Source of the DNA: Bacteroidaceae bacterium
GTDB lineage: Bacteria > Bacteroidota > Bacteroidia > Bacteroidales > Bacteroidaceae
Assembly (NCBI GenBank): GCA_017614465.1
Contig: JAGABW010000032.1
Location: 1-43,501, forward strand
Length of the DNA: 43,501 nt
Direction of reading: 5' to 3'
In this document: positions 10,544-13,590 of the stretch, one piece after another
How positions within the stretch are numbered: the first letter of the stretch is position 1
Layout: each line of letters begins with the position of its first letter
Notes under the pieces: model-generated
What the model saw: only the letters and a program-made list of their open reading frames with translations
Databases searched by the model: none
Told to the model about the DNA's origin: nothing
Program-made: the position numbers and the translations under genes

Positions 10544-11482
10544 TCAAGAAAACTGAAAAAGTAGAACAAATGCCGTTGCAGCAAGAATGAGTCCGAGAAC
10601 CTGCAACAGTCTAAGTCGCTCTGAGAAAAACAGCACCCCCACCAATGTTGACAACAACACTACAGACGTGTGATACATCGGATATAGAACACCTGTTGAC
10701 AAGTCTAACAACCCACGAAGTATAAATGCGGTACATCCGGCATTTAACACCCCTAACAATCCGCCACCTACGACTACACGCCATCCTAATCGATGTTTCT
10801 TGAAACTACCAGAAACCACACAAATAAGTAAGGACAGAAGCATAGCCATAAGGAATATATTGCCAGTAAGCGCATTTAATTTAAAGCCGACCAAAGACGA
10901 ATTCTGACATTGTTCGGAAACTGTATGTTGAAGTAACTTCAGTGAGAAATCGCATATTCCATAAAAAAAGAACACACCCATTAATCCAACCACCGAATAA
11001 ACACCCATCTTTGGCGACACCGGAGCATACTTATCCTTTCTTCCTCGCCCTTTCCCACCTATTGGCATCACGATACACACCAAAGCCAAAAGAATCAATG
11101 ATATTGGTATTAACGCTGGCGCAGGCTGATCAAGAAACGCCCAAGACAAAACGACAGGCAGCACCAGGGATGCTTTAGCCGCAACCGTAGTAAGGGCCAC
11201 CCCGTTAAGACTCACAGATTTTCCCATCATAACGAAAGCTATCATAAAGAAAGCACCTACAATCAACGATAGAAAATACACCATTGGCGATAAGACATAG
11301 GCATCCCAGCCCACATCCGACATCATCGTGGCATTATAAGATATCGGAATCCAATTTATCAGTACCGCAGCAATATAGTTGAAAAGTACAATCTGCTTTA
11401 TATCCAGATTATACTTATTAAATACCTTAAAAAGCACGTTACACGTTGTACCACAAAGGATAGCCAAAAGTAAATATAACAT
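10544..11482 (-). CDS. DMT/EamA-family permease
   Basis: 312 aa from the ATG at 11480-11482; a TTG codon two codons upstream is a less likely start. About ten hydrophobic segments in two halves (first half starts MLYLLLAILCGTTCNVLFKV, second half around GVYSVVGLMGVFFFYGICDF), as in the drug/metabolite transporter superfamily. The two-fold repeat and the Pro/Gly-rich helix ends (YPMYHTSVVLLSTLVGVLFF) fit EamA domains. The substrate is unknown; nothing in the neighbourhood points to one. A promoter at 11506-11536 overlaps the terminator of the preceding small transcription unit. Confidence 0.8.
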   Translation of the reverse strand: MLYLLLAILCGTTCNVLFKVFNKYNLDIKQIVLFNYIAAVLINWIPISYNATMMSDVGWDAYVLSPMVYFLSLIVGAFFMIAFVMMGKSVSLNGVALTTVAAKASLVLPVVLSWAFLDQPAPALIPISLILLALVCIVMPIGGKGRGRKDKYAPVSPKMGVYSVVGLMGVFFFYGICDFSLKLLQHTVSEQCQNSSLVGFKLNALTGNIFLMAMLLSLLICVVSGSFKKHRLGWRVVVGGGLLGVLNAGCTAFILRGLLDLSTGVLYPMYHTSVVLLSTLVGVLFFSERLRLLQVLGLILAATAFVLLFQFS

Positions 11483-11505
11483 AATCAATCTATTATTTCG
11501 AGATG

Positions 11506-11536
11506 CAAAAATATAAAAAAAAGGCGTTTCATCAAA
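11506..11536 (-). promoter_or_regulatory. Promoter of the DMT permease, overlapping a terminator
   Basis: Minus strand TTTG (11533-11536), 19 nt, TATTTTTG (11506-11513). The TTTG is the loop of the hairpin at 11522-11547 and the spacer holds its T-run, so the same bases read as terminator and as promoter. Confidence 0.5.
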
Positions 11537-11547
11537 ATGAAACGCCT
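11514..11547 (-). terminator. Strong terminator after the micropeptide gene
   Basis: Perfect 11-bp stem AGGCGTTTCAT / ATGAAACGCCT with a 4-nt loop (11522-11547), followed on the minus strand by eight T. No plus-strand gene ends here, so it must close a minus-strand transcript coming from 11592 or above. Confidence 0.75.
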
Positions 11548-11591
11548 AATGGATTGTATATTTTATAGAGTTAACTTTCAAAAGAAGAGCG

Positions 11592-11669
11592 TTATTTCAA
11601 TATAGAAATGTTGCTCACTAAGGCAGCTACTATAACTACGGCTGCAACTAAAATACCTAAAATTTCCAT
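11592..11669 (-). CDS. Putative 25-residue hydrophobic membrane micropeptide
   Basis: ATG at 11667-11669, TAA at 11592-11594. The peptide starts MEILGILVAAVVIVAALV and ends SNISILK: one membrane-spanning helix with a single acidic residue at the N-end and one Lys at the C-end. I know no family for it. Support: a strong terminator begins 44 bp downstream, a promoter with a Crp/Fnr-like box lies about 435 bp upstream, and the 12 nt before the ATG are A/T only, like other Bacteroidetes starts. It could be a small membrane-protein subunit, a type I toxin-like peptide, or a chance ORF in a regulatory RNA. The region has no other coding candidate of the right orientation and size. Confidence 0.5.
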   Translation of the reverse strand: MEILGILVAAVVIVAALVSNISILK

Positions 11670-11711
11670 AATATATAAATTTTAAATTAATAAATAAAAT
11701 CCTAAAAACAG

Positions 11712-11814
11712 AGTTGGGGACACATTTTTTAATTATCATGTGTAATCATCATCTCGTTTCATCATCCCCTTCTCTCCAAGGGTTGGGGTCACACTTGACC
11801 TTGCCCCTAAATGT
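11712..11814. repeat. G-rich palindromic, REP-like element with a duplicated 12-mer
   Basis: GTTGGGGACACA at 11713-11724 and GTTGGGGTCACA at 11782-11793 differ at one base. The second is embedded in stem-forming sequence: CCCTT / AAGGG around 11767-11783 (plus-strand text CCCCTTCTCTCCAAGGG) and TGACC / GGTCA at 11787-11800. It is much richer in G+C than its AT-rich surroundings. The form resembles intergenic palindromes scattered in some Bacteroidetes genomes. Confidence 0.4.
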
Positions 11815-11815
11815 T

Positions 11816-11912
11816 TAACATTAACTAATCAAATCTTAATTAACCAATCAAACTAACCTTTTAAAAACTAATCAAACTAACTTTAACCTAAATACTAACC
11901 AATCTTTAACCT
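11816..11912 (-). repeat. Degenerate tandem repeats in the leader
   Basis: On the minus strand three to four units of the type GGTTAGTTTGATTGGTTA / AAGTTAGTTTGATTAGTTTT occur within about 95 bp, with irregular period of 20-30 nt. They are T/G-rich and nearly free of C on the minus strand, so that RNA would be largely unstructured there. Confidence 0.4.
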
Positions 11913-11955
11913 TTATATTATTCCATTTGCGTTGTCTGCGTTTAAACATCTTCAT
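11872..11955 (-). CDS. Possible 27-residue basic leader peptide
   Basis: ATG at 11953-11955, TGA at 11872-11874. Begins MKMFKRRQRKWNN and ends FRLKLV; ten of 27 residues are Lys or Arg. It lies in the leader between the promoter at 12104-12135 and the micropeptide. Its 3' part runs into the tandem repeats. The coding evidence is only an open frame and a basic composition, so it may be chance. Confidence 0.25.
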   Translation of the reverse strand: MKMFKRRQRKWNNIKVKDWLVFRLKLV

Positions 11956-11999
11956 GATTTTTATTTCTTATCATTAAATGTTATTTTTACTCACATCAT

Positions 12000-12035
12000 C
12001 TATAGACTAAGTCTTGAGATGTTCTTTTGTGCCAT
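12000..12035 (-). CDS. Possible 11-residue leader peptide
   Basis: MAQKNISRLSL then TAG (12000-12002). It is the first ATG after the predicted transcript start, about 63 nt downstream. It could be a regulatory upstream ORF; no independent support. Confidence 0.2.
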   Translation of the reverse strand: MAQKNISRLSL

Positions 12036-12103
12036 TTAACAAATCCTTGGTTTTACTTATTATTTTATAATGTTTTCAACCTTGTTTTTGTCTTTTGACA
12101 CTG

Positions 12104-12135
12104 CAAAGGTAAGGCGGTTTTACAAACCCACCAAA
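12104..12135 (-). promoter_or_regulatory. Strong Bacteroidetes promoter facing a gene-poor region
   Basis: Minus strand TTTG (12132-12135), 20 nt, TACCTTTG (12104-12111). Predicted start near 12098. The only downstream content before a strong terminator is about 430 nt of leader and the 25-residue peptide. Confidence 0.65.
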
Positions 12136-12171
12136 TATTTTTCAAAAAAAAGCGCAAAACTATATTATTTA

Positions 12172-12185
12172 TTGATTTAAATCAA
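12172..12185. promoter_or_regulatory. Crp/Fnr-family operator-like palindrome
   Basis: TTGATTTAAATCAA is a perfect 14-bp palindrome and an exact TTGAT-N4-ATCAA, the FNR consensus of Proteobacteria. Its centre is about 80 bp upstream of the predicted start of the 12104-12135 promoter, a usual class I activator position. Whether the local Crp/Fnr proteins read this sequence is not known. Confidence 0.45.
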
Positions 12186-12196
12186 CTTGTGTGTCC

Positions 12197-12208
12197 GAGC
12201 ACGTGCTC
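12197..12208. promoter_or_regulatory. 12-bp palindrome next to the Fnr-like box
   Basis: GAGCACGTGCTC, perfect and G+C-rich in AT-rich DNA, 12 bp from the TTGAT palindrome. It may be a second operator; function unknown. Confidence 0.3.
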
Positions 12209-12444
12209 ATTTTACATCGTAATGAGCAATTTTATTTCGGTGTGTACGCACACAACAGCACATTAAACGAGTATAAAAACCACCACTTTTATCGGAAATC
12301 CGCCCCATATCTACGTACCCCACCATACACCACCATCAAACCCATTTTACCGCATACAATTATGGCCGAATCATTCAATCACACAAGAACGACCAGACAA
12401 ACACACGAAAAAGAGAACGGATTAACACGCAATATTATTGATGA
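12209..12444. other. Gap between operator region and glycosyltransferase stop
   Basis: About 235 bp with no gene that I can support. A plus-strand open frame runs through it into the glycosyltransferase 3' end but has no family resemblance, promoter or plausible composition (many His, Thr, Pro from ACC/CAC-rich DNA). Confidence 0.45.
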
Positions 12445-13590
12445 TTATCGCAAAATAACCGAACCAACAATAATATTATCAAATTTTGGAGAATAAATAG
12501 CGGCACATGGCGCATGATCGCCACAAGACAGGGATTCCATCTTTGACAGGACCTCGGAATAAGAACATGAATCCACATCATAAATCACGCAGTCTGCATC
12601 TCCGGCAGAATCAACACCACAATTAAGATGATTCCTCTCACATAAAGCTTTAACAGCAGGCATATTTGCATCTGATACATCCAAAAAGAATTTCACCTTT
12701 TTCAAATAAGCCGAATCAGACACTTCACCAACAAACACTCGTCTGAGTTTTCTACGAACAAACTCAGCCACACCCTTTCCCCAAATAGCCATTCGTACAA
12801 TAAGGGAAAGAAACCAACTACGATTAGAATAATACTTACTAAAGAATATCAGCATTGCCTGATAAAATATCTTCACATACCTGTAAGTATCCTTACGTGT
12901 ACTCTCACCTTTATAATGTAATATACGCAATGGCAAATAATAGTTCTTATGCCCTGTAAGCAACAAGCGATACGACAAATCAATATCTTCACCATACATA
13001 AAGAATGATTCATCAAAGAACCCCACTTCGTCAAGAAGAGAACGTCGGATAAACATAAAAGCACCGGAAATGATTTCAATCTCGCTGCATTTATCCTTAT
13101 CAAGAAACATCATATGATATTTCCCTATAACACGATTTCGAGGGAACAGCTTACTCAATCCAGACATATGAAAGAAAGCCGTTGAAGGAGTTGGCACACC
13201 ACGACGTGACTCTTTAGCAAATGTACCGTCAAGATTAAGCATTTTCACTCCACATGCGCCAATCTGAGGGTCATTATCCAAACAATCCACACATCCTTTG
13301 AGTACATCTTCCCCAACAATGGTATCTGGATTAAGCAACAACACATATTCAGCAGAAGTCATGCTCAATGCCATATTATTAGCCTTTGCAAAGCCTACAT
13401 TAACATCATTCTCCACATAGACAACCTGCGGATAACGTGCACGAAGATATGAAACAGAATCATCACCGCTCGCATTGTCAACGACAAAAACCTCGCCATC
13501 AATATCTTTCATTGCACGAAAAACAGAGTCAAGGCATTGTTCCAAATGAAAACGGACCTTATAGTTTACTATGATTACTGCTAATTTCAC
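12445..13590 (-). CDS. Glycosyltransferase family 2, rhamnosyltransferase-like
   Basis: 381 aa with a GTG start (13588-13590); no in-frame ATG lies between it and the previous stop. GT-A fold: VIIVNYKV at the start, VDNAS at 37-41, NVGFAKANN at 64-72 and LNPDT at 86-90, the acidic motif for the nucleotide-sugar metal. GEDIDLSYRLLLTGH further on is typical of WbbL-like enzymes that add rhamnose or similar sugars to lipid-linked or cell-surface glycans. A patch of hydrophobic residues (FLSLIVRMAIWG) may touch the membrane. It begins six bases after the stop of the membrane protein at 13597-14079, so the two are co-translated or co-transcribed. Substrate unknown. Confidence 0.85.
   Translation of the reverse strand: MKLAVIIVNYKVRFHLEQCLDSVFRAMKDIDGEVFVVDNASGDDSVSYLRARYPQVVYVENDVNVGFAKANNMALSMTSAEYVLLLNPDTIVGEDVLKGCVDCLDNDPQIGACGVKMLNLDGTFAKESRRGVPTPSTAFFHMSGLSKLFPRNRVIGKYHMMFLDKDKCSEIEIISGAFMFIRRSLLDEVGFFDESFFMYGEDIDLSYRLLLTGHKNYYLPLRILHYKGESTRKDTYRYVKIFYQAMLIFFSKYYSNRSWFLSLIVRMAIWGKGVAEFVRRKLRRVFVGEVSDSAYLKKVKFFLDVSDANMPAVKALCERNHLNCGVDSAGDADCVIYDVDSCSYSEVLSKMESLSCGDHAPCAAIYSPKFDNIIVGSVILR

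Follow-up and report, generated by a model that had tools for sequence, protein, structure and literature searches.

Within a 43,501-nucleotide contig of a Bacteroidaceae bacterium (the window), the minus strand carries a unit that we read, on balance, as a transcript activated by a Crp/Fnr-type protein and encoding a single-span membrane micropeptide, with the transcript itself most likely being a dual-function RNA. The preliminary description of this DNA had offered two readings, a membrane micropeptide under redox or metabolic control and a small peptide borne on a regulatory RNA, and this proposal is supported by conserved geometry, selection on the peptide, recurring words in the leader and, in one subgroup of relatives, an element resembling the small RNA FopS. 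The parts it listed (palindrome, exact promoter, leader of about 430 nt, 25-residue ORF and perfect terminator) are all present on the minus strand, arranged as follows.

12241..12252, minus strand: second palindrome, TGTGCGTACACA, 67 nt upstream of the Fnr-type box
12172-12185, minus strand: Fnr-type box, TTGATTTAAATCAA, a perfect palindrome centred near -80 relative to the putative start
12104-12135, minus strand: Bacteroidota promoter as read in the sequence, TTTG-N20-TACCTTTG
12132-12135, minus strand: -33 element, TTTG
12104-12111, minus strand: -7 element, TACCTTTG
near 12098, minus strand: putative transcription start
11670..12098, minus strand: leader, 429 nt from the putative start
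11820..11915, minus strand: repeated words GGTTA / TTAGTTTGATT, within the leader
11778..11808, minus strand: leader hairpin from computed folds, AGGGGCAAGGTCAAGTGTGACCCCAACCCTT
11592-11669, minus strand: ORF of the 25-residue hydrophobic micropeptide, MEILGILVAAVVIVAALVSNISILK
11514..11547, minus strand: intrinsic terminator with an 11-bp stem (11522-11547), a loop of 4 and then a T run
12445-13590: glycosyltransferase gene (Pfam match), flanking the unit on one side
10544-11488: 314-aa frame in the same orientation as the micropeptide ORF, on the other flank

The terminator stem is perfect, as had been claimed, but one of the eight T credited to the run after it is the stem's own last base. 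The 314-aa frame had no Pfam match at E ≤ 0.001, and searches of the window with Rfam (at gathering) and ARAGORN found nothing. A generic sigma-70 scan, whose model lacks the Bacteroidota consensus, returned 16 promoter-like sites in the window against 15.6 expected. An upstream basic ORF (MKMFKRRQRKW...) was rejected as not conserved, since only ~10 codons of it are left in the sister genome (L003). A further perfect palindrome, GAGCACGTGCTC (12197-12208), stands shortly before the Fnr-type box, and L023 has a degenerate form of it.

Conservation of the micropeptide and its promoter

When the peptide was compared with 61 relatives, 10 genomes had a match at E ≤ 1. At E ≤ 0.1, a 10-row profile (A1) then hit 64 of 399 genomes of the family, and at E ≤ 1e-5 it still hit 47; the weakest of these matches include chance hits in long frames. 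Across the order, a wider profile (A5) matched just 4 of 393 genomes, the window's included, and the other three matches were weak (E 0.005-0.05); on these sampled genomes, the peptide family thus seems confined to the window's own taxonomic family. Six named records with the peptide are all uncultured metagenome assemblies (three Prevotellaceae, two Bacteroidaceae and one Bacteroidales). With hmmsearch, 2888 small ATG ORFs of the sampled loci yielded 166 hits and, once identical contexts and shared stops were removed, 79 homologous ORFs from seven genera (g1, g9, g11, g15, g18, g20 and g53). Shared features of the peptides are a hydrophobic middle and, in most, (V/A)SN followed by S or T, with K as the last residue; the g9 and g11 forms have no C-terminal K, and some g1 relatives have more distant forms (e.g. 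MDTIVLFLLGIMFFAFILSNISAWK) that escape the profile.

In comparisons among 65 distinct 25-codon genes, all but 2 of 2080 pairs (2078) had pN below pS, a uniform direction even though such pairs are not independent of one another. Mean pN/pS rose from 0.14 in the nearest band to 0.46 in the farthest. These data indicate that the peptide is under purifying selection, and the near-universal excess of pS means that it is very probably translated. The window peptide has a maximal 15-residue hydropathy of 3.23 and probably forms a single inner-membrane span. With five peptides submitted to each, Pfam and NCBIfam gave no match above cut-off (weak Pfam matches to PF11446 and PF04021 fell below it), and PHROGs and PADLOC gave nothing; no relative of alignment A3 was found in IMG/VR. 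Viral contigs were considered as carriers and rejected, none of 116 pattern matches being confirmed. The literature matches listed, drawn from a scope mostly outside subscription journals, contained no description of the micropeptide family. For Bacteroides thetaiotaomicron, 409 predicted sORFs are given in the accessible part of PMC7366714.

Seven loci (L025, L031, L034, L041, L075, L079 and L081) have two micropeptide ORFs after one promoter. In an uncontrolled count, 58 of 72 homologous units have a hairpin of -10 kcal/mol or lower before a T run no more than 450 nt past the ORF. Units of genus g18 also encode, further downstream, a member of a second, different micropeptide family (the MIALLGVIILMVAVVALVFRN type, 21 aa; L025 1761-1826, also L040, L056 and L057).

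For each of the 79 ORFs, we took the best-scoring box among those lying 70-80 nt ahead of a TAnnTTTG. In 78 of them TAnnTTTG stands at a set distance from the box, which starts 74-76 nt before the -7 element, the interval in which all the best ones fall. In 61 of the 79, the box has no mismatch and the -7 element is followed by its C, and 17 have one or two departures (in L076 and L084 the box is perfect and only the C is missing); the single ORF without such a box and -7 element, L090, is a weak member. With reversed sequence as control, 52 of 79 had no -7 match, and the best score, 9 of 11 points, was reached in 2. Four loci (L008, L009, L012 and L015) had been included only because their DNA resembles the window region, and they do not count as independent; leaving them out, the box is 74-76 nt before the -7 element in 74 of 75. 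The preliminary description had staked its proposal in part on conservation of peptide and promoter in related species, and both are conserved, with fixed geometry.

Since tandem ORFs share promoters, these ORFs represent 72 distinct promoters. Of these, 45 carry TGTGYGNNCACA in the 120 nt ahead of the box, against a shuffle mean of 0.07, mostly at distances of 15-18, 48-52 and 67-70 nt. Box and TGTGYGNNCACA together look like a composite, helically phased activator region. In L005, three GGTGTACACC palindromes crowd into a short stretch (2133-2218), noticed through a spurious Rfam match.

A TTGAT-N4-ATCAA-like box at a fixed promoter distance is what is expected of Fnr/Crp-activated promoters, and the homologous units show it. 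Judged from the sequences, the box is Fnr-like in its letters only, so that redox control is no more than a possibility. The family PF13545 was found above cut-off in all 8 relatives examined; the window's own genome (78% complete) has two matches that do not reach the cut-off, including a Crp-like protein of 226 aa. By eye, the recognition helices lack the Fnr glutamate at its usual place, and we have therefore assigned no Crp/Fnr protein to the box. Cur (BT4338) of Bacteroides, whose regulon includes the small RNA MasB, would be comparable as a Crp-family activator that switches a small RNA, but the motif in the accessible parts of the sources, wwwTATGTTnTAnAACATAwww, differs from TTGAYnnnnRTCAA (PMC6989115, PMC10994844, PMC3878776). 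Neither the HcpR2 motif GTAACnnnnGTTAC (accessible part of PMC1274295) nor Bacteroides PM2, with boxes at -10 and -30 (accessible part of PMC7366714), fits the box, and the accessible parts of PMC12040651 and PMC12119571 contain no motif matching it.

Leader words and a FopS-like block

Leaders range from about 80 to 500 nt across units, those of g9 and g11 being only ~80-140 nt, and they carry repeated sense-strand AGGTWA/AAAGATT words. Across 71 leaders, AGGTWA occurs 205 times, where shuffles give 45.9 ± 6.0, and the opposite strand has none; its density is 10.2 per kb, compared to 0.54 for 196 further upstream regions taken from the sampled loci. The enrichment persists when the last 60 nt are removed (170 versus 33.9, 69 leaders) and when the g15 subgroup described below and the last 30 nt are left out (103 versus 21.8 ± 4.4, 50 leaders). 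AGGTAAAAAGATT often stands immediately before the ATG, and in several loci (L080, L085, L136 and L137) the word does so directly. In the window leader, GGTTA is present in 5 copies (as many in 1 of 2000 shuffles) and AGGTWA in 3 (as many in 43 of 2000). The fold of 11672-12098 has a z-score of -1.80, with 3 of 100 shuffles folding as well, and by eye the hairpin AGGGGCAAGGTCAAGTGTGACCCCAACCCTT has similar letters in L003, L004 and L005, of the same genus.

One g15 subgroup, chosen by peptide type, has in its 21 leaders a near-invariant block of ~100 nt; other g15 units (L044, L059, L065, L070, L072, L073, L075-L078 and L082-L084) are outside it. The core of the block, seed plus hairpin, is found in 19 of 71 leaders, with a U-run behind it in most copies. 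The U-run hints at a short FopS-like RNA terminating at the block hairpin, in which case read-through would make the peptide. In the g15-subgroup leaders, the block matches the FopS / GibS small RNAs (RF04319) in the seed GUAUUAGAUUUAAGGUUAAuAAAaGAuU, the hairpin with a GUGA-type loop and the U-run. When Rfam was run on 34 loci, 21 of them from this subgroup, FopS matched at full length at the block in 18, all in the subgroup (18/21, versus 0/13 of the others; 2 of 15 loci in one batch and 16 of 19 in the other). The scores (26.9-33.6 bits, E 0.33-6.5) are singly not significant, and the best (33.6, in L045 and L047) does not reach the RF04319 gathering threshold of 56 bits. Local alignment to the 5' part of FopS scored 40-47 in the 21 subgroup leaders versus shuffles near 18 ± 3, and for 33 of 71 leaders no more than 2 of 200 shuffles scored as high. 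The window leader is a weak match outside the 45 best-scoring of the 71, holding only words related to the FopS seed and no Rfam match.

In the block hairpin, 80 of 80 cells are paired and 3 of 10 pairs have changed on both sides, among 8 distinct sequences from close relatives. The fold of one g15 block has a z-score of -1.00, and the case for structure in the block rests on covariation rather than energy. FopS, as characterised in the accessible part of PMC11697453, is ~65-70 nt long and has canonical promoters, with sORFs excluded; in contrast, the element here lies inside a longer leader, before a micropeptide and under an Fnr-type box. FopS would be expected to go with RbpB, yet proteins with an RRM (PF00076, RbpB's family) were found in only 2 of 8 genomes and were missing from 6, among them G030, which is 99% complete and carries the block. 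Complements of the seed with at most 2 mismatches were not in excess in the window's own genome (39 + 44 sites versus 43 + 44), and no clear seed complement was seen by eye at 30 SusC-type loci, where starts were placed by a crude rule that is surely wrong in L246 and L247.

Other products behind the same promoter

Genome-wide, the pattern of box, 58-63 nt and TAnnTTTGC occurs 78 times in 61 genomes, versus 3 when read backwards; the window site is one of four in its own genome. Judged by eye, the other genes after it include glnK-amtB-like, dapF/dapL-like, glutamate synthase-like and nuoA-like ones. At L126, L131, L134, L146 and L155 it precedes nitrogen-assimilation-like genes (glnK-amtB, gltB, dapF-dapL; by eye), with boxes such as TTGACATGTGTCAA that perhaps belong to a second regulator.

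Of 78 promoters taken from loci L096-L223, some with the family peptide, 17 have AGGTWA-N0-3-AAAGATT within 450 nt, compared to ~3 expected from the 0.09 per kb of other upstream regions. At least 8 of these 17 encode the family peptide or a distant g1 form (L107, L109, L111, L114, L132, L198, L199 and L201). Elsewhere the word accompanies other hydrophobic micropeptides (L117, the site of L151; L136; L142), a basic 34-residue ORF (L137) or, by eye, a transporter-like gene (L153), and L147 and L152 have it without a convincing ORF, their frames being of 19 and 17 residues only. From these differing word-bearing units, we conclude that promoter and leader words travel together as sequence elements while the product varies. 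Hydrophobic sORFs follow the box at 72 of 116 sites, whereas the opposite strand has them at 45; the comparison is of little weight, as 57 of the 72 are in L001-L095 and L198-L202, loci chosen for likeness to the peptide or to window DNA.

Several further products were noticed behind such promoters. L109, L110 and L165 share another micropeptide, MEQ(V/L)TK-QM...LFLYAF-MVD, behind the same box and promoter; in the first two loci it precedes a SHISMMK-type peptide. One genome has similar basic peptides of ~30 residues after the box in L156 and L157 (MKKVK(S/N)IF...ADPMIWGYVML). In L139, the leader downstream of the box holds eight AGGTWA words in 450 nt, without a recognised family micropeptide.

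Competing readings and biological meaning

The main rival is a plain mRNA that makes the peptide alone, with the words serving as duplicated ribosome-landing or mRNA-stability elements. We regard this as doubtful, although it is a serious contender: the position of the word right before the ATG in the four loci named above may serve translation only, the g9 and g11 leaders are short, and the FopS block is restricted to one subgroup. Against it, the words stay enriched without the last 60 nt, the near-invariant block with its covarying hairpin recurs in 21 g15-subgroup leaders, and L147 and L152 keep the word where there is no convincing ORF. The converse, a regulatory RNA in which the ORF is incidental, would account for the strand-specific words and the FopS likeness in a subgroup, but is hardly credible given codon-level selection in 2078 of 2080 pairs and 79 ORFs kept in seven genera behind leaders very different in length and letters.

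A type I toxin-antitoxin locus, in which a membrane toxin is repressed by an antisense RNA, would fit the short hydrophobic peptide, the tandem copies and the long leader. It is improbable, as antisense Bacteroidota promoter-like sites were seen in 0 of 72 units versus 2 of 72 in the reversed control, the conserved box is of activator type, and the PADLOC, PHROGs (five peptides each) and IMG/VR (A3) searches came back empty. A leader peptide or attenuator for the downstream gene is a still more remote reading; frame 10544-11488 does lie in the same orientation, but a strong terminator separates it from the ORF, and by eye the downstream genes vary (the 314-aa frame in the window, GH2-like genes in L107, L111 and L132, others in L025 and L114).

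We therefore return to the dual-function transcript that we favour. Given the conserved geometry, a Crp/Fnr-superfamily activator would bind the TTGAY-N4-RTCAA box at about -80, in many relatives together with a second factor on TGTGYGNNCACA further upstream, and would switch on a standard Bacteroidota promoter. The promoter and terminator present would delimit a transcript of ~580 nt ending at the hairpin. Codon-level selection strongly supports translation of the 25-residue peptide, whose hydrophobic stretch would form one inner-membrane span with the C-terminal K inside. Small peptides such as CydX, AcrZ and SgrT tune a membrane protein or complex, and the most likely role of this one would be that of such a partner. 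The leader, rich in AGGUWA/AAAGAUU like part of the FopS R1' seed, would act at the RNA level, probably through base pairing to mRNAs or contact with a protein.

CydX, KdpF, AcrZ and MgtS are small single-span membrane proteins; the peptide resembles them in being a short hydrophobic helix with its own small gene, but differs in having no Pfam or NCBIfam family match above cut-off. SgrS/SgrT and AzuCR are dual-function RNAs with a small peptide. The peptide of VcdRP in Vibrio has 29 residues, according to the accessible part of PMC8672173. All three share with the unit a peptide of ~25-30 residues combined with an RNA function, both functions being putative here. We know of no relation between the window unit and SgrS/SgrT, AzuCR or VcdRP.

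Too short for standard gene finding, the peptide has no curated family in Pfam, NCBIfam, PHROGs or PADLOC, and despite its smallness its own promoter module has been kept over seven genera. A conserved peptide gene, a promoter of fixed layout and a long leader resembling a known small RNA in some relatives make it probable that these bacteria employ a class of regulated micropeptide transcripts that has gone unrecorded. More tentatively, as a possibility we would not yet rely on, Bacteroidaceae and Prevotellaceae may have a class of Crp/Fnr-type-switched RNAs with a constant promoter module, a multi-seed leader in the language of FopS (often without an RbpB-like protein) and exchangeable membrane micropeptides. 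If so, these would be dual-function RNAs coupling a metabolic signal to both mRNA control and a membrane complex. The unit offers a direct handle on the signal behind the Fnr-like box in gut Bacteroidota, on the role of single-span micropeptides in these bacteria and on the possible use of FopS-type seeds where no RbpB-like protein is seen.
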